A stretch of DNA of 64,000 nt from Saccharofermentans sp. (GTDB lineage: Bacteria > Bacillota > Clostridia > Saccharofermentanales > Saccharofermentanaceae). The stretch is taken from contig JAILNR010000009.1 of assembly GCA_024691325.1 (NCBI GenBank), forward strand, positions 87,409-151,408, given 5' to 3'. This document shows positions 47,681 to 64,000 of the stretch, in pieces; position 1 is the first letter of the stretch, and every line of letters starts with the position of its first letter. Below the pieces are notes generated by a model that worked only from the letters and a program-made list of their open reading frames with translations, made no database searches and was not told the DNA's origin. The position numbers were made by a program, and so were the translations under genes.

Positions 47681-47708
47681 TTGACACATTAAAAATCCGT
47701 GATATTAT
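47681..47708 (+). promoter_or_regulatory. Sigma-A type promoter upstream of 47800 ORF-rpoD
   Basis: TTGACA - 16 nt - TATTAT. Confidence 0.6.
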
Positions 47709-47799: not shown

Positions 47800-48558
47800 A
47801 TGGCTATTATTCAAGGCATGTGCAGAAACTGCGGCTCTCTCATTATGTTTGATGACAGAGATGATAAATGTGAGTGCGTTTTCTGCCATTGTGTTTTCCC
47901 TTCAGCGGAAGCAGTTGAGATACTTAATGCACCTGAAGGAAGAACGTTTGCAAATGAGAAGTTTGAGCCGTCTAATGACGGAACCAAGCATAATGCTACC
48001 AGGGTTTTCTCAGCTGAGAGTCTTGAGAAGCAGATTGCAAGGGATGAGATAAAGAGAGCAAACAATCCTGATCAGAAGAAGAATGAGTACGAAGTACAGG
48101 CATCGGATGTCAAGGCACCGAAGCCGCTTCTCATCGGGTTGATAACGGGTATTGTGGCAGCCGCTGCGATTATCCTTATCATTGCATATCCTATGTACAC
48201 AAAGCGTATTGCTCTTCGCAGTGATATAGAAGCATCTATCGAGACCGTGTTCGATGGAATTGCTGATATCGATACATCGAGTGATGAGCAGAATGTGTAC
48301 TTCAAGGGCTTTAGTGTTTTTGGACAGACTTGTCAGTACATGAACGCTATTACGATGGATGAGATCAGTGATGAAGATGCTGAAACCATTTTCGATAATT
48401 ATTGTACATTAAGAGCAGAAAAGTTAGGACTTGGCGGTGATATCTACGCCGGTGTGCAGTTGAAGATCTACTGTAACGGCGGATATTTTACTGTCACAGG
48501 AAACGGCGGGGATGTAAACGCTGAATTCACTGCAGATGCAGAGATTACGGAGGACTAA
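47800..48558 (+). CDS. Zinc-ribbon plus single-TM protein of unknown function
   Basis: [49 protein letters not shown]. Confidence 0.7.
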
Positions 48559-48562
48559 GACT

Positions 48563-50320
48563 ACGGCTAGCAAGAAGAATACACCAGCATCCAAGAAGGC
48601 TGCTGCAAAGACTAAGACCTCAACGAAGAAGGCTGCTGCTAAGGCACCCGCTAAGAAGACTGCACCTGCAAAGAAAGCAGCACCTGCAAAGAAAGCAGCG
48701 CCTGCAAAGAAGGCAGCACCTGCAAAGAAAGCTGCACCTGCAAAGAAGGCAGCACCTGCAAAGAAGGCTGCACCTGCAAAGAAGGCAGCACCTGCAAAGA
48801 AGGCAGCGCCTGCAAAGAAAGCAGCACCTGCAAAGAAGGCAGCACCTGCAAAGAAGGCTGCACCTGCAAAGAAGGCAGCGCCTGCAAAGAAGGCAGCTCC
48901 TGCAAAGAAGGCAGCGCCTGCAAAGAAAGCTGCACCTGCAAAGAAGGCAGCACCTGCAAAGAAGGCTGCACCTGCAAAGAAGGCAGCACCTGCAAAGAAG
49001 GCGGCACCTGCAAAGAAGGCAGCACCTGCAAATAAGGCGGCACCTGCTAAGAAGGCAGCGCCTGCAAAGAAGGCAGCACCTGCAAAGAAGGCAGCACCTG
49101 CAAAGAAAGCTGCACCCGCAAAGAAGGCAGCACCTGCTAAGAAGGCAGCACCCGCAAAGAAGGCAGAACCTGCGAAGACAACCAAAGCTGCTAAGACATC
49201 CAAGAAGGCAGCTAAGGAGGTTAAAGAAGAGACAGCAGTTACTCCTGAAGTCTCTGATTCCGGCGAGGACATCAGCGGCTTGATGGCTCAACTGAAGCTC
49301 ATGGCTTCAGGCAGAGATAACTCTATTACTGAAGGTGAGTTCGATCTTCTCATGGTTGAGAAGGATGTTTCTCCTGAGACTTCCGAGAGACTTCTTGCCA
49401 AGCTTCAGGCTGCTAAGATAAAGATCGTTCCTGATACAGATGACGATGAGGATTCTACGGATGACGGTTCAGTTTCTACATCCGAAGAGATCAGCGTTGA
49501 TGACTCTGTACGTATGTACCTTAAGGAGATCGGTAAGATTCCGCTTCTTAACGCTGATCAGGAAAGAGACCTTGCACAGAAGATGCAGGATGGCGATATC
49601 GAGGCTAAGAATACTCTTGTTGAGTCTAACTTAAGACTCGTTGTTTCCATCGCCAAGAAGTATATGAACAGAGGATTGAGTCTTCTCGATCTTATTCAGG
49701 AAGGTAATATCGGTCTTATCAAGGCTGTTGATAAGTTCGACTATTCCAAGGGCTTTAAGTTCTCCACATATGCTACATGGTGGATACGTCAGGCTATTAC
49801 GAGAGCTATTGCCGATCAGGCAAGAACGATCAGAATCCCTGTACATATGGTCGAGACGATCAACAAGCTTACGCGTATGCAGCGTCAGCTCATTCAGGAT
49901 CTCGGAAGAGAGCCTACTATCGATGAACTTGCTGAGAAGATGAATATGCCTGTTGATAAGATCAGAGATATCCAGAGAATTTCCCAGGATCCCGTATCCA
50001 TCGACAAGCCTGTCGGTGAGGAGGAAGATTCACATCTCGTTGATTTTATCCCTAGTGAGGAATATACATCTCCTGACGATGAGGTTTCCAAGGATCTGTT
50101 GAGAGAAGACCTTATCAAGGTTCTCGATCTTCTTACTGAGCGTGAGGCTAAGGTAATCAGATTGAGATTCGGTCTTGATGATGATAAGCAGAGGACTCTT
50201 GAAGAGGTCGGCAGAAGTCTCGGCGTTACAAGAGAGAGAATCAGACAGATTGAGGCTAAGGCTATAAGAAAGCTCGGTAGATCTTCTTATGCTAAGCGCC
50301 TTGAGGGATATACTGATTAA
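48563..50320 (+). CDS. rpoD: Primary sigma factor (sigma-70) with AAPAKK-repeat N-terminal extension
   Basis: [74 protein letters not shown] and region 4. ORF track start is ATG 48536; ACG 48563 proposed as start (see findings). Confidence 0.93.
48659..49180 (+). repeat. In-frame 18-bp tandem repeat (GCAGCACCTGCAAAGAAG-like) encoding AAPAKK, about 29 units
   Basis: Direct reading; third-position variation; one variant unit AAPANK near 49031. Confidence 0.95.
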
Positions 50321-50328
50321 GCCGGCCT

Positions 50329-51822
50329 ATGCTTGCAGGCAGGCACATCTATTCATTCTATAGAGGATTTGGCAGTGACAACGACCTGGATTTTTCCAGG
50401 CGTTCGTCTTTTGACCGTGATGTTATGCTCGAGAGGATCTATCCGAGAAGGATCATCCTCCCGATGCGTCAGCATTACGGGGAAAACTGCGTTCCGGTAG
50501 TTAAAGCAGGTGAGTCCGTAACCATCGGTCAGTGTGTTGGAGCACCTAATCCCGGAACCATGGCTGTTCCGGTCCATAGCGGCATATCAGGTAAGGTCAA
50601 GGATATCCGTCCTATAGTTCTTCCTGACGGAGTCATGTGCGATGCCGTTTTTATCGAGGGCGATAACAAAAGGACTTATCACCCGTCTGTAAGGCCCAGA
50701 AATAATGTAAATATCAGTGCCACTTCGGTTATGGGAATAATACGTGATGCCGGTATCGTCGGCCTCGGTGGAGAAGGAACACCGACGGTAGCCAAGATCA
50801 ACCGTGCGAAGAGACTCAAGGTCAAGGAGCTTCTCATTAACTGCCTTCAAAGTGAACCATATGCTGCATCTGACTATCTTACCTTAAGTGAGTATGCTGA
50901 TTATGTCATAATGGGTGCCGTAGCTCTTGCAGGAGCATGCGGCGTGCATGTAATAAACATCCTTATCTCCAAAGATCACAAGTACGAGATCTCAACCTTG
51001 CGTACTGCAATGGAGAGAACATCCACCAGATATTCCGGATATGTTTTTAACTTTATCTATCTTAAGCAAAGATACCCTCAGGGCTATTACCGCATGGTTG
51101 CGAAAGCTCTTTATGACGTTAATCTTGAGGAAGGTGAGTGCCTCGAGGATATATGCCATGCCGTAATGTTTAACTGTTCTACCGTTTATGCCTGTTGGAA
51201 TGCGATTGCAGAGAGTATGCCTCTTGTATCACGCGTGATAAGCATAAGCACGGAAGACGGTATTAAGCACAATGTAGTGGCTCCGATAGGAACTCCGGTA
51301 AGCGAGCTTTTCGAGAATGTAAATGGTATCTCGAGTACTTCGAAGAGAGTGATCTGGGGCAACTGCCTTACAGGAATAGAGTTAACGGATCCTGATAACA
51401 CGCCGATAATCAAGACTACTTCAGGCATCTGCGTTATTACAAGGCAAGAGGACCTGAGGGCGCCGTGCTCATTGTGCGGAAGGTGCCAGGATGCGTGTCC
51501 TATGGGGCTTGAACCCAACATACTTTACGGGCTTATCGGAGCAGGCAAGGACAAGGCTGCGGATAAGATACATGCTGACAGATGCATTGGGTGCGGTGCG
51601 TGCTCCTACGTCTGTCCTTCTTACCTTAACCTCGCTTCCGTTATCGGAGAATATGCATCAGCCAAGCGAAAAACTGTCAGCTTCCCGTTCTCGAGCGTGG
51701 GCGACAGAAGGTGGCTTGATGATGTTACTTTATTGTCGGCTGACAGCGTTAAGGTAGCGGAGAATCTGAAGAAAAAGGATGATTCACTTACGCTGCCGTT
51801 TGAAGGGTGGGAAAACAGATGA
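50329..51822 (+). CDS. RnfC-like electron transport protein
   Basis: GIVGLGGEGTPTVAKI, CLQSEPYAASDY, two clusters CSLCGRCQDACPM and CIGCGACSYVCP. Confidence 0.85.
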   Translation: MLAGRHIYSFYRGFGSDNDLDFSRRSSFDRDVMLERIYPRRIILPMRQHYGENCVPVVKAGESVTIGQCVGAPNPGTMAVPVHSGISGKVKDIRPIVLPDGVMCDAVFIEGDNKRTYHPSVRPRNNVNISATSVMGIIRDAGIVGLGGEGTPTVAKINRAKRLKVKELLINCLQSEPYAASDYLTLSEYADYVIMGAVALAGACGVHVINILISKDHKYEISTLRTAMERTSTRYSGYVFNFIYLKQRYPQGYYRMVAKALYDVNLEEGECLEDICHAVMFNCSTVYACWNAIAESMPLVSRVISISTEDGIKHNVVAPIGTPVSELFENVNGISSTSKRVIWGNCLTGIELTDPDNTPIIKTTSGICVITRQEDLRAPCSLCGRCQDACPMGLEPNILYGLIGAGKDKAADKIHADRCIGCGACSYVCPSYLNLASVIGEYASAKRKTVSFPFSSVGDRRWLDDVTLLSADSVKVAENLKKKDDSLTLPFEGWENR

Positions 51823-52769
51823 TAGTAAGACAGGGCGCACCTTTCATAAAGACGGAACGGAACCTTACTTACATATCTGCAATAAGGCTTCTGTCATTGT
51901 TGCCTGTTATTGTTGCAGCGGTTGTTTTTTACGGCTTGCGCGCTTTAATACTCATAGCATTTTGTTCAGTGATGTTCTTCGCTTTTGATGAGTTTTGCAC
52001 TGCAATTAAGCATGTGCACCAGCCAAGAGATATGAGTTCTTTCTTTAATGGCGCACTGATTGCTTTGATGCTCCCGCCGGATACACCTTTATACATAGCT
52101 TTTACGGGAGTGTTGTTCGGATCGGTCATAGTAAGACAGCTTTCCGGAGGAAGAGGATCTGAATTTATCTGTCCTGCTGCGGGTGGAAGGATATTTATAA
52201 GGATCATTTTCCCTATGAACGAGACTTCTTTCGCATTCCCGACTGAGGACAGATTTGCTTTGAGAAGTCTGATCTTCGGTTCGCAGGGATTTGAGGGAGT
52301 TGATATTAAAAGTTTTCATCTGTTTGAACTGGTAGTGGGTAAGTATCCGTCGTTTATAGGAATGTCATGTGCTTTGCTTATCACTGCAGGAATGATCTAC
52401 ATGATAGTGAAGAAGGCCTACAGATTCTATGTGCCGTTAGCATACACGGTCTCGCTTGTTATTCTTCTTATCATAAAAGACAGCGTCTATCATACAGATA
52501 ATGCATTGGTTTACATACTTACCTCAGGCGTGTTGTTTCAGGTGGCTTACCTTTTAAGTGACGAGAGTTCCTTCCTGGCATTCGGACCAATGGCCATTCT
52601 TGAGGCGGTCATGTGTGCTGCTTTGTCATTCCTTATGTCGTTCAAGACAAACGGAATAGATGTTGTTCTTGTTCCTTATATTCTTACGGCTGTTCTTACA
52701 GGTGTAATCAAATATGCGGGAACCATTATGAAAGCTTACACGGAGGACAAACTGCGTGCTGAGTCGTAA
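51819..52769 (+). CDS. RnfD-like membrane protein
   Basis: FFNGALIALMLPPDTPLYIAFTGVLFGSVIVRQLSGGRGSEFICPAAGGRIF resembles RnfD; ATG 51819 overlaps the previous stop (ORF track start GTG 51807). Confidence 0.75.
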   Translation: MIVRQGAPFIKTERNLTYISAIRLLSLLPVIVAAVVFYGLRALILIAFCSVMFFAFDEFCTAIKHVHQPRDMSSFFNGALIALMLPPDTPLYIAFTGVLFGSVIVRQLSGGRGSEFICPAAGGRIFIRIIFPMNETSFAFPTEDRFALRSLIFGSQGFEGVDIKSFHLFELVVGKYPSFIGMSCALLITAGMIYMIVKKAYRFYVPLAYTVSLVILLIIKDSVYHTDNALVYILTSGVLFQVAYLLSDESSFLAFGPMAILEAVMCAALSFLMSFKTNGIDVVLVPYILTAVLTGVIKYAGTIMKAYTEDKLRAES

Positions 52770-54066
52770 TGATGTAATCAAGTTTACTATAGAGGGAATA
52801 CTTATAGCTGTAGTGAGCTTTATTGTTCTGTTCCTCGGAATAATCTCGACGAGAGGACTCGAGTACGATCGCCGTCAGGAAAGCTACAGAAGTGAATTTA
52901 CCGAGGTTTTACAAGCTGATTCCTATCAGGAGGTTGTAAGTCCTCTTATAGCGGGATACAGCGGTATAAATGAAGTTTATGAAGGCGTTGATGCTAATGG
53001 TGCTCCAATTGGTTATGTTTTTGAGATTGAAGTAACAGATCGCGGAACAGGTAATCCTCTAAGGCTTCTTATCGGTATCGACTATAACACGGCTCAGCTT
53101 ACGGGCATGATGAGGTCAAGAAGTGACAATTATAACTCATCGATAACGGATGAGGATATTGCGACCATACTTGAGCAGACTATCCATAGAAGAATACCCG
53201 TATCATATGGGCAGGAAGGTCAGCAATCGGAGGCCGAAACTTCGGATCAGCCCAGACTTGCCAATCTTAATGATGGTGTCTATTATGCACAGTCATTATC
53301 TGACGACAATTCAGGTTACATCGACTATGTCGAGATGACGATTGAGAATGGGGTAATAACACTTGTACAGTGGGATGCTTTCAATATCGATATGAATTAT
53401 AAAAACAGAAGGCAGGCTTCTCTCGACGGAGTTTATACTGTTCAGGGGTTAAACTGGGCGTCACAGTCATATCTTCTGTGTCATGCACTTATGGATGTTC
53501 AGAATCCTGATCTGCTCGCTATGAAATCAGATGGTACTACCGACATAGTTGATGGTGTTACAGTTAACATAAGGACATTCTACGATCTTTGCGTTGAATG
53601 CATCGAGAACTCCAGGGCAGGCTTTGATAAGGACGATTACTTTGCAGGCTTGCAGGAGGTGGTAGATGGGCTTTTCGCAGGTGACTTCGAGTCACTCGGC
53701 GTAGTTAATGACGACGGATTTATAGTGTTCCCCTTTGATGATTATCCCGGTGTTTTCCTGAGTGAAGACGGCAGTCAGCTTAATCTGAGACAGAGAATTA
53801 CAGGTGATATGACGGACTATTCTGATTTCGATTCCGCGTCTGTAGACGGAGGGGAGGAGATGGCTGTTACCGTTGACGGGAATGAGGATGGCGTGAGGAC
53901 CGGTGATTCAACCATAGATGCAGACAGCATCGATGGTCTTCCTATGTCTGAGATTAACACATTTATTGACGGAATACCGGATCACTTCATGAGAACTGCG
54001 GATATCGTTACGGCGATAAACACGTCGTATAAATTCCTCAAGGATTATCTTAACTGGATGGCATAA
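52756..54066 (+). CDS. RnfG/FMN_bind-like membrane-anchored extracytoplasmic protein
   Basis: N-terminal TM; GAPIGYVFEIEVTDRGTGNPLRLLIGIDYNTAQLTG and second segment NDGVYYAQSL..GYIDYVEMTIENGVI. Confidence 0.6.
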   Translation: MLSRNDVIKFTIEGILIAVVSFIVLFLGIISTRGLEYDRRQESYRSEFTEVLQADSYQEVVSPLIAGYSGINEVYEGVDANGAPIGYVFEIEVTDRGTGNPLRLLIGIDYNTAQLTGMMRSRSDNYNSSITDEDIATILEQTIHRRIPVSYGQEGQQSEAETSDQPRLANLNDGVYYAQSLSDDNSGYIDYVEMTIENGVITLVQWDAFNIDMNYKNRRQASLDGVYTVQGLNWASQSYLLCHALMDVQNPDLLAMKSDGTTDIVDGVTVNIRTFYDLCVECIENSRAGFDKDDYFAGLQEVVDGLFAGDFESLGVVNDDGFIVFPFDDYPGVFLSEDGSQLNLRQRITGDMTDYSDFDSASVDGGEEMAVTVDGNEDGVRTGDSTIDADSIDGLPMSEINTFIDGIPDHFMRTADIVTAINTSYKFLKDYLNWMA

Positions 54067-54067
54067 T

Positions 54068-55228
54068 ATGAGCATGTTGGAAGATATCAACAAGGTTATT
54101 AAAGAAAGATCACTTACCGGTGCAGATTATTTAAGTACCAGATCTTCGCTGTTTACTGCGTATGCAGTCGTGGGAATCTGTCTTATGGTTCCGGCCTTTG
54201 CCGGAGATATGAGTGCTTTGGTATTATCGATGCTCGTGTCTATGGGTGTAAGCCTTGCTATGGTCTTGCTTTGGACTTTCACTTTCAGATTTTTTGAGAA
54301 TCCCGATATGCTTCCTGTTGATGTTGTGTTGAATCTTCTGCCCGCGGTAATCGCAGGTATTTTCCTAAGTGACAAGATATCTTTGGAAGGACTTGTATTT
54401 ATCAGTGGCGGACTTACATGTTTTGCAATCACATCATCCGAGAAGATTAAGAAGAGCAAGCTTACTGAGAAGGGTTTTAAGGAGGTTGGTTTTCTTAACG
54501 GAGAATTTGTAAAGGCGAATGACTTTATTATTGTTGACCCGTCTTCCGAGGTTTTTGTTCCGCTTACGCTCGCTTTGTTGACATCTTATATAAGCATTGT
54601 AGCCGTTGCTATATTGCAAAAGATGACAGGAGTTTCAAGTAAGGGACTTAGAGTGTTTATTGCTTCGGTTTTGCTTATGTTTATCTCATTTGCCGTAAGT
54701 AAGATCAGGGGGAAGGATTTTATCATCTCGTCTAAGAATTTAAGCGATCCGACAAGACTTCCCACAGTAAGCTACACGGCTTTAAGAAGTTTTCTTCTGA
54801 GGAGACTTAGATTCATTATCAGCTTTGTTCTAATTGCCGCAGGGTGTCTTGCCTGTGATTATATTAACAGCAATTTCAATCTGGGGTTTCCCTATATGAA
54901 GCATGTGCTTTCTATCCTTTTGGTTTTTTCATTTGCTTTTATCAGAGGTCGTAACTCTCACCACAAGGTTCAGTTTACGCTCGAGCTTGGAATAATCCTT
55001 GCAGTATGTGTTACGAGATGCACTGATATCGAGAATGCTATTAAACTGACTTTGGCAGGTGTTTTTGCAGATACTGTCATTAATGGTCTGCTGTATACAC
55101 ATAACAGACGTCTTATCATGTCATCGAGGAGCAGATATGTTGCAGGTCTTCCTTTGGAATTAATGTCAGTTTCCATTATTGTTATGGTGTTTGAAATCTT
55201 GTTGGAATACGGAGAACTTGTGTTATAA
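54068..55228 (+). CDS. Multi-TM protein of unknown function in the Rnf-like cluster
   Basis: About 10 hydrophobic segments; 1-bp spacing to the previous gene; no recognised family. Confidence 0.65.
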   Translation: MSMLEDINKVIKERSLTGADYLSTRSSLFTAYAVVGICLMVPAFAGDMSALVLSMLVSMGVSLAMVLLWTFTFRFFENPDMLPVDVVLNLLPAVIAGIFLSDKISLEGLVFISGGLTCFAITSSEKIKKSKLTEKGFKEVGFLNGEFVKANDFIIVDPSSEVFVPLTLALLTSYISIVAVAILQKMTGVSSKGLRVFIASVLLMFISFAVSKIRGKDFIISSKNLSDPTRLPTVSYTALRSFLLRRLRFIISFVLIAAGCLACDYINSNFNLGFPYMKHVLSILLVFSFAFIRGRNSHHKVQFTLELGIILAVCVTRCTDIENAIKLTLAGVFADTVINGLLYTHNRRLIMSSRSRYVAGLPLELMSVSIIVMVFEILLEYGELVL

Positions 55229-55238
55229 TTTTCTGTAC

Positions 55239-55315
55239 GATTGTGTAGCTCAGCTGGATAGAGCGTCCGCCTCCTAAGCGGAAGGCCAGCGGTTCGAATC
55301 CGCTCACGATCACCA
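55239..55315 (+). tRNA. tRNA-Arg (anticodon CCT)
   Basis: Acceptor GATTGTG/CACGATC, D arm GCTC..GAGC, anticodon stem TCCGC/GCGGA with loop CTCCTAA, GTTCGAATC T-loop, encoded CCA. Confidence 0.96.
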
Positions 55316-55323
55316 ATAAAATC

Positions 55324-55357
55324 AGGGGTTTTCGGGTTCCGGCCGACCCCTTTTTTT
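55324..55357 (+). terminator. Rho-independent terminator downstream of the tRNA
   Basis: AGGGGTTTTCGGGTTCCGGCCGACCCCTTTTTTT: GGGGT/ACCCC stem and T-run. Confidence 0.6.
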
Positions 55358-55393: not shown

Positions 55394-56626
55394 TTATGCG
55401 ACTCCAAACAGTTTTTTTCTGACATCTTCAACCGTTCTTTCATCACCGAACGAATAGTTCTTCTCGTTGGTCTGCATATTATGACCAAGCACATAACACC
55501 GTTGATTAGCATCAACTCCGGCTTTTATGAGTCTTGCGTTAAAAGCAACTCTGAAAGCATGGTTATTGCTGATATTTATGCCCAACGAGGCACACCTGCG
55601 TCTTAAATAGTATTCATAGGAATCCTTTAAGACCGGTTTGCCGTTCGGATGATGGAATAAGTACTCTGACTTACCCGGCAGTTTGAGAGCTATTTCCAAA
55701 GCTTTTTGGCATTCCTTGGTGATCGGTATCTTTCTGCCACCCCTCGGATTAGCTCTTTCGTTTTTGGTGTAATCGACTTCTTTAAAGCGGTTTTTCTTGC
55801 CTGAAGCGGTCTTCGGTTCTTTGAGTTGTTGACGGTGAACATAGATGTAGCCGTCACGAACATCATCTTTTCTCAATGCAGGCAGCTCTCCGGCACGCAT
55901 TCCTGTTTCGATCGCTACCAGCATTACCGCCGCATGAGGATTATTGGAATCCTTCAGACCATATTCCCGTAATTTTTCGATGTCTTCTTCAGAGAAAGAC
56001 CGTTCCTCGTTGGTTTTGGTCTTCAGATTACAAAACTTAAAGTAGTCTTCAACCAAAATATCCTGCGCGGGATTATCAAAACAGAGTTTTCTGCGGATTC
56101 CGAATGTATATACCGCTTTTATCAACTGGAGCATTTTCTTCAATGCTTCCTTTTTGGGATTCCGCTTAAGGAAATCGCACATCAACCATTCTCGGAGTTC
56201 GTCTTCGGATATAAGCACAAAGCTTTTGTTCCTGATCTTCTTGCTGAGAAACCCGTTGATACGCCGATATTCTCTTAAGGTCAACTCTGATCTGCCGTAA
56301 GACCGCTTGGATTTGATGTATGCTTCAAACAAATCATCGTAGGTCTTGGGAATGTCTTCCATATCCCTGTAGAAACCATATAAGAAGTCGTACAATTTGT
56401 CTTCTGTCGGTTTTTGCACCACCTTTCTCTTGCCGTTAACAATTATGTGAGTGTACCAGTAACCTTCGCGACTCTTGCCTTTTGCATGCAAAGGAGAGAT
56501 CTTGAATTTGTGATGTTCGCCCACATATATCCTTTTTGCCTCAGTTTTTGCATTACTCATCGTAATTAACCTTGAGACAATCTCGGGGTTGCTTTTTAAT
56601 AATATCATCATTTCCTCATCAGTCAT
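55394..56626 (-). CDS. Tyrosine recombinase/integrase
   Basis: ETGMRAGELPAL, NHAFRVAFNARL, YVLGHNMQTNEKNYSF (R..HxxR..H..Y). Confidence 0.93.
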   Translation of the reverse strand: MTDEEMMILLKSNPEIVSRLITMSNAKTEAKRIYVGEHHKFKISPLHAKGKSREGYWYTHIIVNGKRKVVQKPTEDKLYDFLYGFYRDMEDIPKTYDDLFEAYIKSKRSYGRSELTLREYRRINGFLSKKIRNKSFVLISEDELREWLMCDFLKRNPKKEALKKMLQLIKAVYTFGIRRKLCFDNPAQDILVEDYFKFCNLKTKTNEERSFSEEDIEKLREYGLKDSNNPHAAVMLVAIETGMRAGELPALRKDDVRDGYIYVHRQQLKEPKTASGKKNRFKEVDYTKNERANPRGGRKIPITKECQKALEIALKLPGKSEYLFHHPNGKPVLKDSYEYYLRRRCASLGINISNNHAFRVAFNARLIKAGVDANQRCYVLGHNMQTNEKNYSFGDERTVEDVRKKLFGVA

Positions 56627-56695
56627 CTTGATATTATTAGCCGCGTCTCACAAATCCGACCTTCTCCTTTCCTGCAATTTATTGAATCAACGAGC

Positions 56696-57910
56696 TTAGG
56701 AAATACCGTCTTTTAAGCCGTTTTTTATGCCGTTTCCCAACTCGCGGGCGGCTTCGCTCATGTTTTTACGGAATTTATCTGCCAGATCACGGCTTGAGAA
56801 GCCGCCCGCGACCGTTTCGTATAATCCGGCTGCATTTCTGTAAACGACACGGTATTTCCCGTCCTCGTTATCAGGGATAACTCGGTACAGACGAGAGTCT
56901 TTCTCATCCAATCCTTTCTGCATACGCTTAATCTCTTCGTTAACGTCTTTGGAAGGATATTCCGGTGTCTCGTCCGGCACGTTGATACCGAATATTCTCA
57001 TAAGGCGAGCCCCGGCCTTGCGGGTGATCTCTTCAAGTTTTTCCTTGAGACTGATTACATAAGCCTTGTACTGTTCAAGGTCTTCTTTGAGTTTTTGTAT
57101 GATGCTTTCTTTTATTGTCAGTTCTTGCTTTAAGGCTTTGTTTTCGGCAAGCAGTTTTTTATAGTCTTCTGCCAATTCCTTCATGTGAGCCTGCTTGTAC
57201 TCTTGTGAGCTGAGGCCATGTTTGGGCGGATTGAGTTTTCTTTCAGCCTTTTCTTCCTCTGTCAGCATGTCATAGGTGCGGCAGTCTTTTATGTCGTACC
57301 CCAGTTCTTGCATCTTAATCGGGTAATTCTTATGAATGTAGTGAAAGAATTTAGTTGTAACTTCGCCTTTGGCGTTGAAAAACGGAATGCCGTTCTTGTC
57401 GATGGAAGGGATTAGAACAATGCTATGTGTATGAGCAGACAATCCACCGAATTCATCGTGATGCTGAACCGCTTCAATGATCCGCCAATTCGGATTCCAG
57501 TTATGAATCAGGTCTGTCATGACCTTATGTCCGTCATTTAAGAATTTGACTTTATCCTCATACGAAAGAGTTTGCATATATGTCATTGAAGGCTTTTCTA
57601 TGATGGATATAACCGACACAGTATCACTTCTGACGGATTTGTTTCCAACCGCATGACGCTGCTCATTTACCCGGTCGATCTCTTTCTGCACAATTCCAAC
57701 AACATCATCCTGAGACGAGCCTTCCATCCACACATTCTTGTTTGTCATGGATTTATCAATTGTTTTATCTCGTCCGATTCTTTCATCGTTCATTTCGTTC
57801 CATGCTTTATCAATAGGACAGGTTTTGGATTTCTTTCCTGACTTACTATTCTTTACTTTTGATGGATTGAGACTGCATTTCATTACGGGGATTCCGACAT
57901 TAAAACTCAT
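56696..57910 (-). CDS. MobV/Pre-type plasmid mobilization relaxase
   Basis: IIEAVQHHDEFGGLSAHTHSIVLIP metal-binding His motif; coiled-coil C-terminal region. Confidence 0.82.
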   Translation of the reverse strand: MSFNVGIPVMKCSLNPSKVKNSKSGKKSKTCPIDKAWNEMNDERIGRDKTIDKSMTNKNVWMEGSSQDDVVGIVQKEIDRVNEQRHAVGNKSVRSDTVSVISIIEKPSMTYMQTLSYEDKVKFLNDGHKVMTDLIHNWNPNWRIIEAVQHHDEFGGLSAHTHSIVLIPSIDKNGIPFFNAKGEVTTKFFHYIHKNYPIKMQELGYDIKDCRTYDMLTEEEKAERKLNPPKHGLSSQEYKQAHMKELAEDYKKLLAENKALKQELTIKESIIQKLKEDLEQYKAYVISLKEKLEEITRKAGARLMRIFGINVPDETPEYPSKDVNEEIKRMQKGLDEKDSRLYRVIPDNEDGKYRVVYRNAAGLYETVAGGFSSRDLADKFRKNMSEAARELGNGIKNGLKDGIS

Positions 57911-57946
57911 AATTATCTCCTTGGGGACAGCACAGGGCGAAGCCCG

Positions 57947-58125
57947 CCTAATTTATTAGGTATAAGTCCTTAGACTTATCTTCGTGCATACGCACTCGAT
58001 AAGTCTCAGGACGCCTGCCGGCAGCTCTCGCAGAGCGATTCTTTTCAGAAGGAACTCCTTGTCGGAGAGACTACTTCCTCAGACGGTGAGGAAGCGAACC
58101 GGGCATCCGCACATTCGTACGGATG
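57947..58125. other. Inverted-repeat cluster upstream of the relaxase; candidate oriT
   Basis: CCTAAT-TT-ATTAGG; AGACTTATC...GATAAGTCT enclosing GTGCATACGCAC; GCTCT-CGC-AGAGC; CTTCCTCA-GACGG-TGAGGAAG; CATCCG...CGGATG. Confidence 0.5.
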
Positions 58126-58134
58126 AATTGAGAA

Positions 58135-59754
58135 TCAGTATGACGTGCTCTCATCGTGGAGCTCGGCATTCAGCTTCTCAATTTCTGCTGATTTATCGTT
58201 AAGCATGGGAATTGTAAAATACGGAGCTTTCTTAACGATAAACCAGTCTCCTCTTGCGAATACCAGTAATTTGTTATCTCTGGACAAATTCTGGATATCC
58301 GCAACGTCCACTGCGGGGCGGTATTCTTGCGAACTGCTTCTTGTAGAAGAAGCAGAACTGCCCCTTGTGGTCGTCGATGTTTTTCTTTCCGAAAAAACAC
58401 CGGTCCTCTTTGATATTGCTTCGCAAGTGGGAAGGTCGTTGGAACCAAAGACAATAGTAGTTTTGCAGCAGTCTTTGATGGCGCGTGTCATATCACGGCC
58501 ATATGTAGTGTCCAACTGACCTTCAGATTGAATAACAAGGCTGACTTGTATGCCTTTTGATCTGCCTCTGGCCAAAACATCGCCCAGAATCGGCAGCTTG
58601 CCGATAGAGCCGGCTTCATCAATAAGCACCCAGATAGGACGCTTATTGGAACGTCTGGCCTCATCTTGAGACATAAGGCACTCAAGGCATGTATTTACGA
58701 TCAGACGCTGAACTGATGCCAGACGCTTTACCTCATGTTCGGGAATTGCCAAAAACACGGAAATTCCGTTAATGAGGTCAAGAGGGGAGACCTTTTTAGG
58801 GTTTGTAGAAGCAAAACAGGCTTTGACTTTATCATCATCAAATACCGCAAGGTCATTCTTGAGTGTCATTGCGACATCCTGAAAGCCGTCAGATGTCTTT
58901 CCGTCAAATTCACTGATGAGGCGCTTGATCTTACTGTGATTATCCATACGATCATCTGTTATGATCTGTGCAATCAGATCGCTTACCGGAACATTACGCA
59001 TTTCCTCAATGCATTCTCCGAATTGTTTGCCGGTAACAAAACCGTACATAAGAAAAGCCGTAAAGATGTTTTTAGCCGCATCCGAAAAGAACCGGTTATC
59101 CGCACCTGAATCCTGAATAACTGTATCCGCGATCATAGAAAACCTTTGAGATAATTCATCATCGGTTGTTTTCGACGTCAGCCCGTAGAAAATATTGAAT
59201 CCACATGAACCAAAAACAGTCGGATTTATTATCTTTATGTCGTCTCTGCCCTCATAAACACCTCTGCGCGACAGTTCCGGCTTAACATCCAAAACCAGCA
59301 TACTGCAGAGTTTTTCTTCCGAAGTTGCGAAGTTAAAATCATATATGATCGCATTCTGCATGGTGACGGATTTGCCTTCGCCCGGAGCACCGATAATGAG
59401 CTGATGTTCCGGTGAAGAGTAGAAGGGAATACCGACATAATGCCTTTTGAATCTTCCGACTGTAAGCCCGTTTGGCTGTTTTGAAAGAAATTCTTTTGAC
59501 GGAGCGCGTCTTAATGCCTTTTGTTTGCTTGGGCTTTTTTTGAAAACATCGTCCTCATATTCCGATGTATCACCGATAAAGTCATAAGCAATCTTAAATC
59601 CGGCAACTGAGACTAATAACGCTATGGCAGCAGCATATTCCCTTGAAAAGATAGGGTAATCGTAAAACGAATGCAGCACCGTTGGGCCTAAAAGATAGTA
59701 AGTGCCGCCTAAACCAACACCGATAATGGTGCTTTGAAGCATGCGATTTTTCAT
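58135..59754 (-). CDS. VirD4/TraG-type coupling protein
   Basis: LIIGAPGEGKSVTMQNAIIYDF, PIWVLIDEAGSIGKLPILGDVLARGRSKGIQVSLVIQSEGQL; start MKNRML with GGAGGAAT SD (ORF track start 59823). Confidence 0.9.
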   Translation of the reverse strand: MKNRMLQSTIIGVGLGGTYYLLGPTVLHSFYDYPIFSREYAAAIALLVSVAGFKIAYDFIGDTSEYEDDVFKKSPSKQKALRRAPSKEFLSKQPNGLTVGRFKRHYVGIPFYSSPEHQLIIGAPGEGKSVTMQNAIIYDFNFATSEEKLCSMLVLDVKPELSRRGVYEGRDDIKIINPTVFGSCGFNIFYGLTSKTTDDELSQRFSMIADTVIQDSGADNRFFSDAAKNIFTAFLMYGFVTGKQFGECIEEMRNVPVSDLIAQIITDDRMDNHSKIKRLISEFDGKTSDGFQDVAMTLKNDLAVFDDDKVKACFASTNPKKVSPLDLINGISVFLAIPEHEVKRLASVQRLIVNTCLECLMSQDEARRSNKRPIWVLIDEAGSIGKLPILGDVLARGRSKGIQVSLVIQSEGQLDTTYGRDMTRAIKDCCKTTIVFGSNDLPTCEAISKRTGVFSERKTSTTTRGSSASSTRSSSQEYRPAVDVADIQNLSRDNKLLVFARGDWFIVKKAPYFTIPMLNDKSAEIEKLNAELHDESTSY

Positions 59755-59794
59755 GCTAATTCCTCCTGTTTGATTGAAAAATGAGTTCTTCAAT

Positions 59795-59897
59795 GTAAAA
59801 TGGAGGAGATGTAGAGCGTCCAAACTTTTACATCTCCCATTTTACGATGGGGTATGAAGCTTAGGTGTGTTAGCGCACATCTAGGCTTCTTTTTTAT
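59795..59897. promoter_or_regulatory. Structured leader upstream of the coupling-protein gene, with possible + strand RNA
   Basis: IR GTAAAATGGAGGAGATGTA (59795-59813)/TACATCTCCCATTTTAC (59829-59845); hairpin GAAGCTTAGGTGTG-TTAGCG-CACATCTAGGCTTC followed by TTTTTT on the + strand. Confidence 0.55.
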
Positions 59898-59939
59898 AGA
59901 TCATAGAATCACCTCCCACAGCAGCAATTTAGTAAAACC

Positions 59940-60677
59940 TTAAGAATCCCATGCCTGAGAGTGCTTCCTGATGAGTTCTCCAAGCTTATATTGTTCTTCC
60001 GGGTATACTATCCACTCGTAGTCAGTTTGAAGAATTGCATACAAGGCTCGATACGTATAAGTTGAATCTTTCAGGACAAACCAATTGTCCTTTATGATGT
60101 CTATATATGTAAGGAGCTTGATTTCCTCAAGGTTCTTATTTGTTAATTGAATACAATCGTTAAAATGCTTTATGGTATTACCAAGCATCGCCAATTTGTC
60201 TTCTTTATCTTTGTTTTCAAGAATATTGGACAGAGTCTTTAATTGGGATATTAGATAGGGTTGTTCTGCTTCATTGTATTTCCCACGCTGTCTGCGTGAA
60301 TTGTTTATGATCATCATTTCACGTGCAAACTCAACAAAGGGCAGGATTGATTCAGGAGACCACCTGCACTTAAATCCTTCATCGCAAGATGCATTCCTAT
60401 TGAATATGGATGCCAGAACATCTTTAACGGACATATCGGTATATAACGAGAAAAAGAGCTCTTGTCCAATTTGATTTTTGGGATATATATCGTTTAGCAA
60501 GTGATGTTGTATTATTGCAGAGCCGGACAAGCGAGTAATGGAAGATTCTGCGTTTGCATAATTCTCCACAAATCGTTTGGTTTTCACATCACTAAAGACA
60601 AGTAGTTTTTGTAGTTCTTTTGATATAGGCACGAATAATCCTCCTATCATGCGAGGTCTATGCCTACTATATACCAA
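59940..60677 (-). CDS. Protein of unknown function (element cargo)
   Basis: Long ORF; internal GTG start (VPISKELQ) likely; no family recognised. Confidence 0.55.
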   Translation of the reverse strand: MVYSRHRPRMIGGLFVPISKELQKLLVFSDVKTKRFVENYANAESSITRLSGSAIIQHHLLNDIYPKNQIGQELFFSLYTDMSVKDVLASIFNRNASCDEGFKCRWSPESILPFVEFAREMMIINNSRRQRGKYNEAEQPYLISQLKTLSNILENKDKEDKLAMLGNTIKHFNDCIQLTNKNLEEIKLLTYIDIIKDNWFVLKDSTYTYRALYAILQTDYEWIVYPEEQYKLGELIRKHSQAWDS

Positions 60678-60826
60678 ACATATAACATGTTCAAGTAACC
60701 TTATAAATTGGTTTCGGGTTATTGTTAAACAATATTTACAAGGTATACCTTATTTAATCTATTCTTTACCCATTAGTCCTATATCTGACACCATTGAGGC
60801 AAAAAACGCTCAAATTTAAAAGGGTG

Positions 60827-60978
60827 TATAATATACGTGCGACACAATTTCATATATTCAAGAGCTGCTGACGTTGGTAAAAACGTCGGCTTCTTCGTTC
60901 AGCTCTTGAATGAATTGTGTCGCAACAATCGAGGCTGGCGTTTTTCGGTGCGGTAGCTTCGGTTGCCGCACTTTTTAT
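60827..60978 (+). ncRNA. Candidate structured RNA: -10 element, long compound hairpin, terminator
   Basis: TATAAT (60827-60832); GCGACACAATT/AATTGTGTCGC, ATTCAAGAGCTG/CAGCTCTTGAAT, CTGACGT/ACGTCGG nested arms; terminator GTGCGGTAGC-TTCG-GTTGCCGCAC-TTTTT. Confidence 0.65.
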
Positions 60979-60992
60979 TTGGGAGGCGTTTT

Positions 60993-62498
60993 ATGAAGAC
61001 CCGTAAGAATACTATTACTGCAGTTTTTCTTATTTCAGTTTTGGTTATGTTGACAGCATGTTTCAGTGCCAAATCTAAATTGGACAGCCTTGTATCAGCA
61101 AAAAAATACAACGAAGCTATCCAGTACTATCTTGAAAAGAAAGATGATATATCCAGGGACGAAGCCAAAGAATCTTTTACTAAAGCGTTAGATCAGATGT
61201 ATCAGGACTACTTAAAAGGTAAAGTTGAAATCAATGATATTGCGAATTATCTCAATGATCTTGAGAAGTTAAACTCCGGTGAGATCTATGAATATGGTCG
61301 AAACACATACTTAAAAGTATATGCCGTTGAAAAGTCAAAAGAAGCCTTTGTCGATGCCGAATTCGCGTATAAAGACGGGCAATATGAAAGGGCAATAGGC
61401 CTTTATAAGCAAGTTGTCAGCGATGATACGAACTATGAGATCGCTCAGAAAAATATAGCTGAATGTATAAAGGAGTATAAGAAGCTAAAGGTAGCGGAAG
61501 CCGAAGAGTTTGCACATAACGGTGATTACAAAAATCCGATCCAGCTCCTTAGACAGGTTGCTTCTTTGATCGGTGATGATAGTGAGATTAACAGTCTCAT
61601 TGTCTCATACCAGTCGAAACTGGAAGAGCAAGTTGTGAGCAACGCTGAATCTTTGATCAATGAAGGAAAGTACGATGAGGCCATCGAGCTTATCAACGAA
61701 AACCAGGATGCGTTTTCTGACAGTAAAAAGTTTGAAGAAGCAAAAAACACTATTACTGAAAAGGTTGTAGAGAAGGAGTTATCCGATTCAAAAGTTGCAG
61801 GCCTTATCTCTGACGGTATGTTTGAAAAGGCGTTAGAATCTATTAATTCCATCAAAGAAAAGTATCCTGATTCCAAATTGATCGAAAAGACCTACAAAGA
61901 TGCTGCTGAACAATATGTTAAGCAGGAACTTGCTAAGATCGAAGAACTTATGAGTAAATCGGATTATGATGCTGCATACGATGAGTGTGAAAAAGCTCTT
62001 GAAAAGGTGCCTGATTCTGAAGAGATAAAGAGTAAGATGGCTTACGCTGGAGAAAGAAAGCCAACAGATCTAATGGATCGTTTTCTGGCTGTTAATGCCG
62101 AAAGCGGCGCAGAAGTGATAAAAATCAATAAAGAAAATACCTTTACTGATAAATCAAATGTTAAGTATTCAAAAAATGCTCTGGATTATGAGTTTTGTGG
62201 TGCCTGGTTTAGAATTGAAAGAGTAGCAAACGCTGAGTTCAAATTAGACAAGAAATACAAATCATTAAGAACTGCAGCTGTACTTGCTTGTTCATTAAAG
62301 AAAGATGATAAAGCGTATATACGAATTTACGGCGATAACAAGTTATTAGTTAAGAAGAAAATTGATAATCATACTACGGCTGACAACATTATTGAGGTTG
62401 ATGTAAGTAATGTTGAAATATTGAAAATTGAAATCAGTTATACGGCTCCTACTATGAATAGTATTGCAGTCGTTAATTCAAAACTGGATAAGAAGTAA
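60993..62498 (+). CDS. Lipoprotein with TPR-like helical repeats
   Basis: Lipobox VMLTACF; SAKKYNEAIQYYLEKKD, GQYERAIGLYKQVV, GKYDEAIELI repeats; GGAGG SD before ATG 60993 (ORF track start 60963 lies in the hairpin). Confidence 0.75.
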   Translation: MKTRKNTITAVFLISVLVMLTACFSAKSKLDSLVSAKKYNEAIQYYLEKKDDISRDEAKESFTKALDQMYQDYLKGKVEINDIANYLNDLEKLNSGEIYEYGRNTYLKVYAVEKSKEAFVDAEFAYKDGQYERAIGLYKQVVSDDTNYEIAQKNIAECIKEYKKLKVAEAEEFAHNGDYKNPIQLLRQVASLIGDDSEINSLIVSYQSKLEEQVVSNAESLINEGKYDEAIELINENQDAFSDSKKFEEAKNTITEKVVEKELSDSKVAGLISDGMFEKALESINSIKEKYPDSKLIEKTYKDAAEQYVKQELAKIEELMSKSDYDAAYDECEKALEKVPDSEEIKSKMAYAGERKPTDLMDRFLAVNAESGAEVIKINKENTFTDKSNVKYSKNALDYEFCGAWFRIERVANAEFKLDKKYKSLRTAAVLACSLKKDDKAYIRIYGDNKLLVKKKIDNHTTADNIIEVDVSNVEILKIEISYTAPTMNSIAVVNSKLDKK

Positions 62499-62549
62499 AG
62501 CTAATTTGGGGAAATTGAAGAGTTGTTGCACTTAACGCGGAGGTAATAC

Positions 62550-62612
62550 ATGATAATACGCCTTGAAGAAATGTATAAATCAGTTAATAACTGGAGAAGA
62601 GATAATCGGTAG
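62550..62612 (+). CDS. Possible 20-aa small protein MIIRLEEMYKSVNNWRRDNR
   Basis: GCGGAGGTAATAC SD before ATG; terminator about 35 nt downstream. Confidence 0.3.
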   Translation: MIIRLEEMYKSVNNWRRDNR

Positions 62613-62646
62613 AGTATTGTATTAATATATTTGAATTATTGAAAAG

Positions 62647-62671
62647 AAGCTGTCCTTGTGACAGCTTTTTT
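62647..62671 (+). terminator. Rho-independent terminator
   Basis: AAGCTGTC-CTTGT-GACAGCTT-TTTTG. Confidence 0.8.
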
Positions 62672-63018
62672 GTTGCTCCGCAATTCGAATCGTTTACTTG
62701 AAACATCATCGGCTACTGCCTTTCTATCTTTTTATTCCATTTACTGCCATCTCCGTTAATGGTTAGGCTCCATTATATTACGCGCCGCGAACCCGTAAAG
62801 ACTAAATGGTACTCGCTATGCTCGGCCTTTACAGAACCGCTTAAAACGCTTCATTTCATTTGAGCCATAACCCCAAACGGCGACGGCTTTAAACGGAAAT
62901 ACAGAAAAGACAGAAAGGAGGCGATGCCTATGATTGTTTCAAACGATTCGAAAGATTAACCCCACCAGCTCCGGCATTACCGGAAATATCTACCATTAAT
63001 TTTCAGGAGGAAATCAAA

Positions 63019-63927
63019 ATGTTATTTTCAGAGTTTAAGAATTATGCCACAGAGAACATCATCAACTATCTCACATCCGACTATGAGGGTGCAGAGATGT
63101 CAATCAGCACTATCCGCAAGTCAAACGGATACGAATACGAAGCCTTGAGAATCAACAAGAAGGGTGAGAAGTGCAGCATCATTCCCGCACTTGACCTCAC
63201 AAGAGCCTATAAGGAATATCAGAAGGGTGCAGACCTTGACGAGATCCTCGCTAAACTCGCAGATATTCGTATGAACGCAAAACTCAGCGGTTTTGACAAG
63301 GAGTCAATTCTTACTTTTGACGGTATCAAGGACAAAATCCTTCCGAGACTTATCAATACGGCAAGCAACGCTGATTATCTCGCAGACAAGCCTCATTTTG
63401 AAATTGCAGACCTTTCAGTAATGTTTGCAGTAAGAGTAGAAGAATCTTCCGATGGTGTTGCAGACGCTCCAATAGATAACAACCTCATGAATCTTTGGAA
63501 CGTAAGCGTTGAAGATATTAAGGAATCAGCATTTGCAAACATCTCAAATCAGACTCCTGTGTTTATGAGCATTGAAAAGGCACTTTTTGAAAGCAACCTT
63601 GATAATTCATTCGACCTCGAGACCGCAGACCCGATGAATGATGAAATGCCGTTCTACATCTTGAGCAACAGACAGAAGGTTCACGGAGCAAGCATTATCT
63701 TTAACAAGTCCTTAATGGCAAAGATAGCCGAGAAGCTTGGAAAATACTATATCCTTCCTTCATCCATCCACGAAGTCCTTATAGTCCCGGCTACTTTAGG
63801 CAGAAATGCAAAAGAACTTGCTGAAATCGTAAGGAACGTAAATGCCGAATCAGTACCGCCACAGGAGAGACTTTCAGATAACATTTATGAGTTTGATATC
63901 GAAGACGAGACAATTAAGATAGCATAA
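63019..63927 (+). CDS. DUF5688 family protein
   Basis: MLFSEFKNYATENIINYL...ALDLTRAYKEYQKGADLDEILAKLADI typical of DUF5688; AGGAGG SD. Confidence 0.75.
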   Translation: MLFSEFKNYATENIINYLTSDYEGAEMSISTIRKSNGYEYEALRINKKGEKCSIIPALDLTRAYKEYQKGADLDEILAKLADIRMNAKLSGFDKESILTFDGIKDKILPRLINTASNADYLADKPHFEIADLSVMFAVRVEESSDGVADAPIDNNLMNLWNVSVEDIKESAFANISNQTPVFMSIEKALFESNLDNSFDLETADPMNDEMPFYILSNRQKVHGASIIFNKSLMAKIAEKLGKYYILPSSIHEVLIVPATLGRNAKELAEIVRNVNAESVPPQERLSDNIYEFDIEDETIKIA

Positions 63928-63933
63928 CTCAAA

Positions 63934-63960
63934 AGAGAGGGGGCAACCCCTCTCTTCTTT
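63934..63960 (+). terminator. Rho-independent terminator
   Basis: AGAGAGGGG-GCAA-CCCCTCTCT then TCTTT. Confidence 0.7.
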
Positions 63961-64000
63961 ACTCTTCAACGCCAGGCACGCCGCCTTCGGCGGCGTGATC

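Follow-up and report, generated by a model that had tools for sequence, protein, structure and literature searches.

A putative second, anciently diverged Rnf-type complex encoded directly behind rpoD in a clostridial family

Directly behind rpoD, the gene for the principal sigma factor, the 64,000-nucleotide stretch of DNA analyzed here (the window) carries rnfC-, rnfD- and rnfG-like genes followed by a membrane gene, X, all on the forward strand. Our favored interpretation, held with modest confidence, is that these genes encode a second complex of the Rnf type, long diverged (RnfC2-D2-G2-EA2, below Rnf2), that has kept the cytosolic electron handling and lost the pump, and that works as a redox-responsive membrane module, a function suggested by sequence. 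More tentatively, and at somewhat less than even odds, Rnf2 might be an Rnf-derived, non-pumping redox sensor or signaling module which is tied to the housekeeping sigma-factor locus throughout the family and is the sole Rnf-type system of one large genus from the rumen. The literature searched, where absence is no proof, contained no description of an Rnf that is linked to rpoD or lacks RnfB. Rnf2 appears to be Rnf-derived but is without several of the features tested that define the Rnf complex, namely RnfB, the intramembrane Fe-S cysteines and the covalent-flavin motifs.

The putative operon is compact. rpoD (48536..50320, +; Pfam Sigma70 r1.2, r2, r3, and r4) is separated by eight bases from rnfC2 (50329..51822, +; 497 aa), which is followed by rnfD2 (51807..52769, +; 320 aa), rnfG2 (52756..54066, +; 436 aa), and X (54068..55228, +; 386 aa, about 11 TM helices). 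The four reading frames overlap or abut and lie at the positions given in an earlier note on this DNA. The last one ends 5' of a tRNA-Arg(CCT) gene (55239..55315, +; found by ARAGORN), which is followed by a terminator-like hairpin and T run (55334..55349, +; consensus scan only) that may form the end of the operon. On the 5' side of the operon, before the gene that precedes rpoD, lies a strong promoter-like site (47681..47708, +) made up of TTGACA, 16 nt, and TATTAT with an extended -10, and its 11 of 12 matches come from a consensus scan only and are not evidence of function. The gene directly 5' of rpoD (47800..48558, +) encodes a protein of 252 aa that has CxxC pairs and a single hydrophobic stretch; it is without Pfam match, occupies the same position across the genus and its sister genera, and may be part of the same conserved operon. 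At the N-terminus of RpoD an 18-bp repeat (PAKKAA; 48644-49178) occurs about 30 times; the length of the repeat seems variable, as the RpoD of relatives within the genus is longer or shorter (350–641 aa). On the minus strand, directly 3' of the tRNA gene (55394-64000), a tyrosine integrase, a Mob_Pre relaxase and a VirD4-type coupling protein are encoded. These apparently belong to an integrative element, mobilizable or conjugative, that has inserted at the end of the tRNA gene; the contig stops with the window, before the far border of the element comes into view.

The rpoD-rnfC-D-G-X neighborhood pointed out in the earlier note is conserved. The order rpoD-C2-D2-G2-X was found in 20/20 regions from genomes of the window's genus and in 56 genome-contig loci of a separate genome collection, as far as the contigs reach and with overlap between the two sets, and an rpoD-linked cluster of C2, D2, G2, and the corresponding X2 was present in 13/13 loci from sister genera. 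The dN/dS ratio was 0.03–0.18 where dS, which is near saturation, could be computed, and the locus is under purifying selection. Taken together, a gene order kept in dozens of species and the low dN/dS argue that the arrangement is not due to chance. In a sample of 115 genomes of the family, 85 from the window's genus and 30 from four sister genera, a C2 profile detected Rnf2 in 112 genomes (584–772 bits). It detected none in the remaining families of the order, where scores of at most 323 bits came from canonical RnfC. Among 391 genomes of the class, searches with full-length G and X profiles gave no match beyond the family, save one marginal short X match. Close relatives of the window genome, including Saccharofermentans sp., are mostly from rumen and horse gut.

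The sister genera hold two systems, a canonical rnf cluster in the order C-D-G-E-A-B and the rpoD-linked C2-D2-G2-X2 cluster. RnfA/E was found in 28/30 of the sister-genus genomes but in 0/85 genomes of the window's genus, and ApbE in 29/30 and 3/85, respectively; the window's genus has lost canonical Rnf and keeps Rnf2 only. The three genus genomes with ApbE (G024, G043, G080) encode it without a canonical Rnf. In maximum-likelihood trees a branch with 100/100 support splits C2 from canonical RnfC, and D2 also stands apart from its canonical counterparts, save that a single D2 from a sister genus falls at the branch that divides the two; C2 and D2 are both on long branches and the depth of the split is uncertain. 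As both systems occur in the sister genera and C2 and D2 form branches separate from every canonical sequence in the sample, Rnf2 appears to be an old paralogous system. The trees do not support a recent origin of Rnf2 by duplication of the canonical Rnf of this family. It is also very improbable that the locus is what remains of a canonical Rnf that is decaying in this organism. The lack of canonical Rnf in the genus and the loss of several subunits and motifs could be read in this way, but a remnant is ruled out by the coexistence of both systems in sister genera, the separate RnfC2 and RnfD2 clades and the distribution in the family, where the locus is kept in 112/115 genomes, and its low dN/dS likewise speaks against decay. 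The proposal of a repurposed, reduced complex that lacks RnfB, ApbE, and S/TGAT is supported, but not in the sense of a reduced form of the organism's own Rnf.

RnfC2 passes the TIGR01945 model (274 bits, cut-off 246). In a residue tally, numbered for C2 and D2 as in C. tetanomorphum, the eight Fe-S cysteines were present in 68/68 sequences and the FMN loop was kept save for three copies from sister genera in which Gly is changed to Arg, so that the FMN site and the two 4Fe-4S clusters of an RnfC can be recognized. Glu163 is replaced by Gln in 67/68 sequences and Cys164 by Ser in all; the ECEPY motif reads QSEPY, a change correctly noted before, and the QGAEK segment reads QGYYR in the window's genus. 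In complex I the NuoF equivalents of Glu163 and Glu237 sit at the NADH site, and this suggests, as a lead, that the donor of RnfC2 may have changed. In the genus, RnfC2 has a variable C-terminal tail that ends in an invariant LPF (residues 489–491, window 51793-51801), and RnfC2 of the sister genera is without such a tail.

RnfD2 passes PF03116 (132 bits, cut-off 27.7, E 3.8e-38) and matches 9eri_D and 7zc6_D, but fails the rnfD model TIGR01946 (89 bits vs. a cut-off of 207). Asp248, Asn124, and Arg130 are kept in 64/66, 56/66, and 61/66 sequences, while Asp147, Thr153 (FMN), Asn90, and Glu185, all of which the canonical D of the same family keeps, are lost. In the published model of canonical RnfD, Asp248 is near riboflavin and the Na+ site, and Thr153, Asn90, and Glu185 lie on the extracytosolic FMN/Na+ side (PMC9588780). 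The conservation of Asn124, Arg130, and Asp248 in D2 may reflect the fold rather than riboflavin. The covalent FMN motif is missing from D2 and present in the canonical D of the sister genera. No NqrF-type NAD domain is fused to D2, which shows PF03116 only.

G2 has no Pfam match and matches rnfG_Methano (4.5e-5) and PplA (7e-4) weakly. By hhalign, however, residues 1–155 and 372–436 align to RnfG (99.1%, E 6e-19), and G2 appears to be a membrane-anchored RnfG fold, between the two parts of which an FMN_bind-like domain is inserted (about residues 165–300). The inserted domain matches 2kzx by sequence (E 4e-18) and both 2kzx and 3o6u by fold (TM 0.66–0.77); together with the alignment of the core, this rules out a G without an FMN domain, as the Pfam search had suggested. 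The domain thus shares the fold of PplA and of the clostridial FMN_bind-like domain (2KZX, 3O6U), but is placed within an RnfG core and has a degenerate S/TGAT. The SGAT flavinylation site of the RnfG core is replaced in G2, and an S/TGA(S/T) motif is absent throughout. The earlier note was right about the lack of S/TGAT in D and G, but missed a degenerate motif in the inserted domain, TDIVDGVT (53539..53562, +), which aligns with TDAISGAT of 2kzx and leaves DGVT in the window copy. Its threonine, Thr269, does not vary among 35 genus sequences, in line with a flavin at this residue. About half of the copies from sister genera, however, carry E, V, K, or R instead, although ApbE is present in these genomes. 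With SGAT lost and no ApbE in the genome, a covalent FMN motif in RnfG accompanied by ApbE was not found. Nor do the D- and G-like proteins score as canonical flavinylated subunits, an alternative considered earlier, as RnfD2 stays below the TIGR01946 cut-off and the motifs are lost.

X on its own gave no match in Pfam, NCBIfam, a PDB sequence search, or Foldseek. It is homologous to X2 of the sister genera over 328 columns (96.2%, E 2.3e-9). With RnfE and RnfA reference profiles built from canonical clusters across Clostridia, residues 13–178 of X2 match RnfE (94.1%, E 1.2e-7), including the RE(I)xGxGS/T stretch, and the C-terminal half of X2 matches the end of RnfA (E 1.2e-4). The genus X profile alone finds no RnfE match and a weak RnfA match (152 columns, E 8e-4), and the C-terminal RnfA match falls in the same register with the separate profiles. 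The signal was weak with the genus profile and family-only references and clear with X2 and Clostridia-wide references. Reversed-profile controls gave E 0.1–0.8, with 0.6 for X2 and RnfE; in an earlier, shallower test 33 unrelated membrane families scored at most 22 vs. 50 for RnfE; and one X2 member matches TIGR01948 (rnfE, 9e-4). X also occupies the E-A slot of the canonical order C-D-G-E-A-B. The AlphaFold (AF2) model of X is confident (pLDDT 86, pTM 0.86), and a Foldseek search with it returned no PDB neighbor, RnfA and RnfE included. As there is no fold match for X and no RnfE match from the genus profile, the case for an EA fusion is made by the sister-genus homologues and the gene order. 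At the level of sequence these comparisons establish a relationship of the X homologues with RnfE and, with less certainty, with RnfA, and there are good grounds to regard X as a fused, very divergent RnfE-RnfA. The suggestion that the 54068-55228 protein stands in place of A/E agrees with its position, but rather than an unknown replacement it would be a diverged fused E-A.

It is rather improbable that X is an unrelated membrane protein, e.g., a transporter, that joined C2-D2-G2. Such an origin would be consistent with the lack of Foldseek and Pfam matches and with a genus profile that matches RnfA only, and weakly; it sits poorly with the similarity of X2 to RnfE, the TIGR01948 match, the C-terminal RnfA match found in register from separate profiles and the exact E-A place of the gene. 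A relationship between X and RnfD gave no signal. In canonical Rnf a [2Fe-2S] cluster is held between RnfA and RnfE (PMC9588780, PMC12174285). A conserved cysteine set was found in neither X nor X2, and the cluster is therefore most likely absent from the fused E-A.

The whole source genome (assembly completeness 98.4%) contains no PF02508 protein (RnfA/E), no match to ApbE and no FMN_bind match in Pfam. PF03116 is found in a single protein, the RnfD2 of the locus, so there is no second RnfD, and the search for RnfB gave ferredoxin-domain matches only, none above the TIGR01944 cut-off. The absence of ApbE from the window and of RnfA, RnfB, and RnfE from the vicinity, both observed earlier, thus extends to the genome, and the case in which RnfA/B/E are encoded elsewhere with these as the sole C, D, and G copies does not apply. 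Although RnfC2 passes TIGR01945, as an ordinary Rnf would, there is next to no likelihood that the locus is part of such a complex with its A, B, and E subunits and ApbE encoded at a distance; at 98% completeness this is ruled out for the source genome, and RnfA/E was negative in 85/85 genomes of the genus.

Rnf2 can be compared with three kinds of known system. First, with canonical Rnf, RnfCDGEAB (Clostridium tetanomorphum 7ZC6; PDB matches 9ERI, 8AHX), for which cofactor path and residues were taken from PMC9588780 and PMC12174285, it shares the FMN loop and two 4Fe-4S sites of RnfC, the RnfD and RnfG folds and the gene order C-D-G-(E-A). It differs in that RnfB is missing, E and A are apparently fused and without Fe-S cysteines, the covalent-flavin motifs are absent, G2 has an inserted domain, the NADH-side residues of RnfC and the Na+-path residues of RnfD are changed, and the locus adjoins rpoD. 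Judged by sequence, Rnf2 has the features of RnfC and of the RnfD family, but not RnfB, the A/E cysteines or the covalent FMN motifs of D and G. Second, the NQR/RNF-like partial systems (Meheust et al., 2021, PMC8238504) also have part of the Rnf/Nqr machinery only, suggesting a single electron path. The defining marks of these systems, which occur mainly in Actinobacteria and CPR, are ApbE, substrates that are flavinylated and an NqrF-like NAD domain, whereas Rnf2 has neither ApbE nor an NqrF domain but does have RnfC, and no ApbE with a flavinylated FMN-binding substrate was found in the source genome. Third, the SoxR-reducing Rsx of E. coli is an Rnf homologue with an assigned regulatory, redox-control role (PMC12174285), in which Rnf2 may resemble it; unlike Rnf2 it is complete, with six subunits, and both RsxD and RsxG carry a flavinylation motif.

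Electrons can presumably still enter RnfC2 from a soluble donor and pass via FMN and the two 4Fe-4S clusters to the riboflavin of D2. The loop that ferredoxin drives across the membrane would be broken, as would the ion pump coupled to it. The redox state would then be relayed by way of D2 and EA2 to G2, which is large and extracytosolic, or, with lower likelihood, electrons would leave the cell via a flavin bound non-covalently. It is unlikely that ferredoxin still drives ion pumping because the path from RnfB via A/E to G and the return path from G to D are without cofactor sites, and since most transmembrane electron-carrying parts are lost the job of Rnf2 probably differs from that of Rnf. 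The main rival to this reading, which we consider unlikely, though well ahead of a remnant or an ordinary Rnf, is a one-way electron exporter in which electrons flow from RnfC2 via D2 to a non-covalent flavin in the inserted domain of G2 and on to an extracytosolic acceptor; apart from the lack of ApbE, it would resemble flavinylated NQR/RNF-like systems and those for extracellular electron transfer. The second FMN_bind-fold domain of G2 with its genus-wide Thr269, the preserved C-D half of the chain and the existence of single-path NQR/RNF-like systems (PMC8238504) are all compatible with export. On the other hand, ApbE is absent from 82/85 genus genomes, Thr269 is replaced in some sister-genus copies although ApbE is present, and the FMN site of D2 between riboflavin and G is lost, which leaves a gap in the exporter path.

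Rnf is central to energy conservation in anaerobes, and in genome annotation its presence is inferred from matches to RnfC and RnfD. The whole genus would be scored as partly Rnf-positive though the transmembrane path is without its cofactor sites. If Rnf2 is indeed a diverged Rnf-type complex that has lost its pump, it would constitute a natural experiment, an Rnf fold without RnfB, the intramembrane Fe-S cluster and covalent flavins. A genus with Rnf2 only also raises the question of how ferredoxin and NADH are balanced in rumen fermenters without a standard Rnf.
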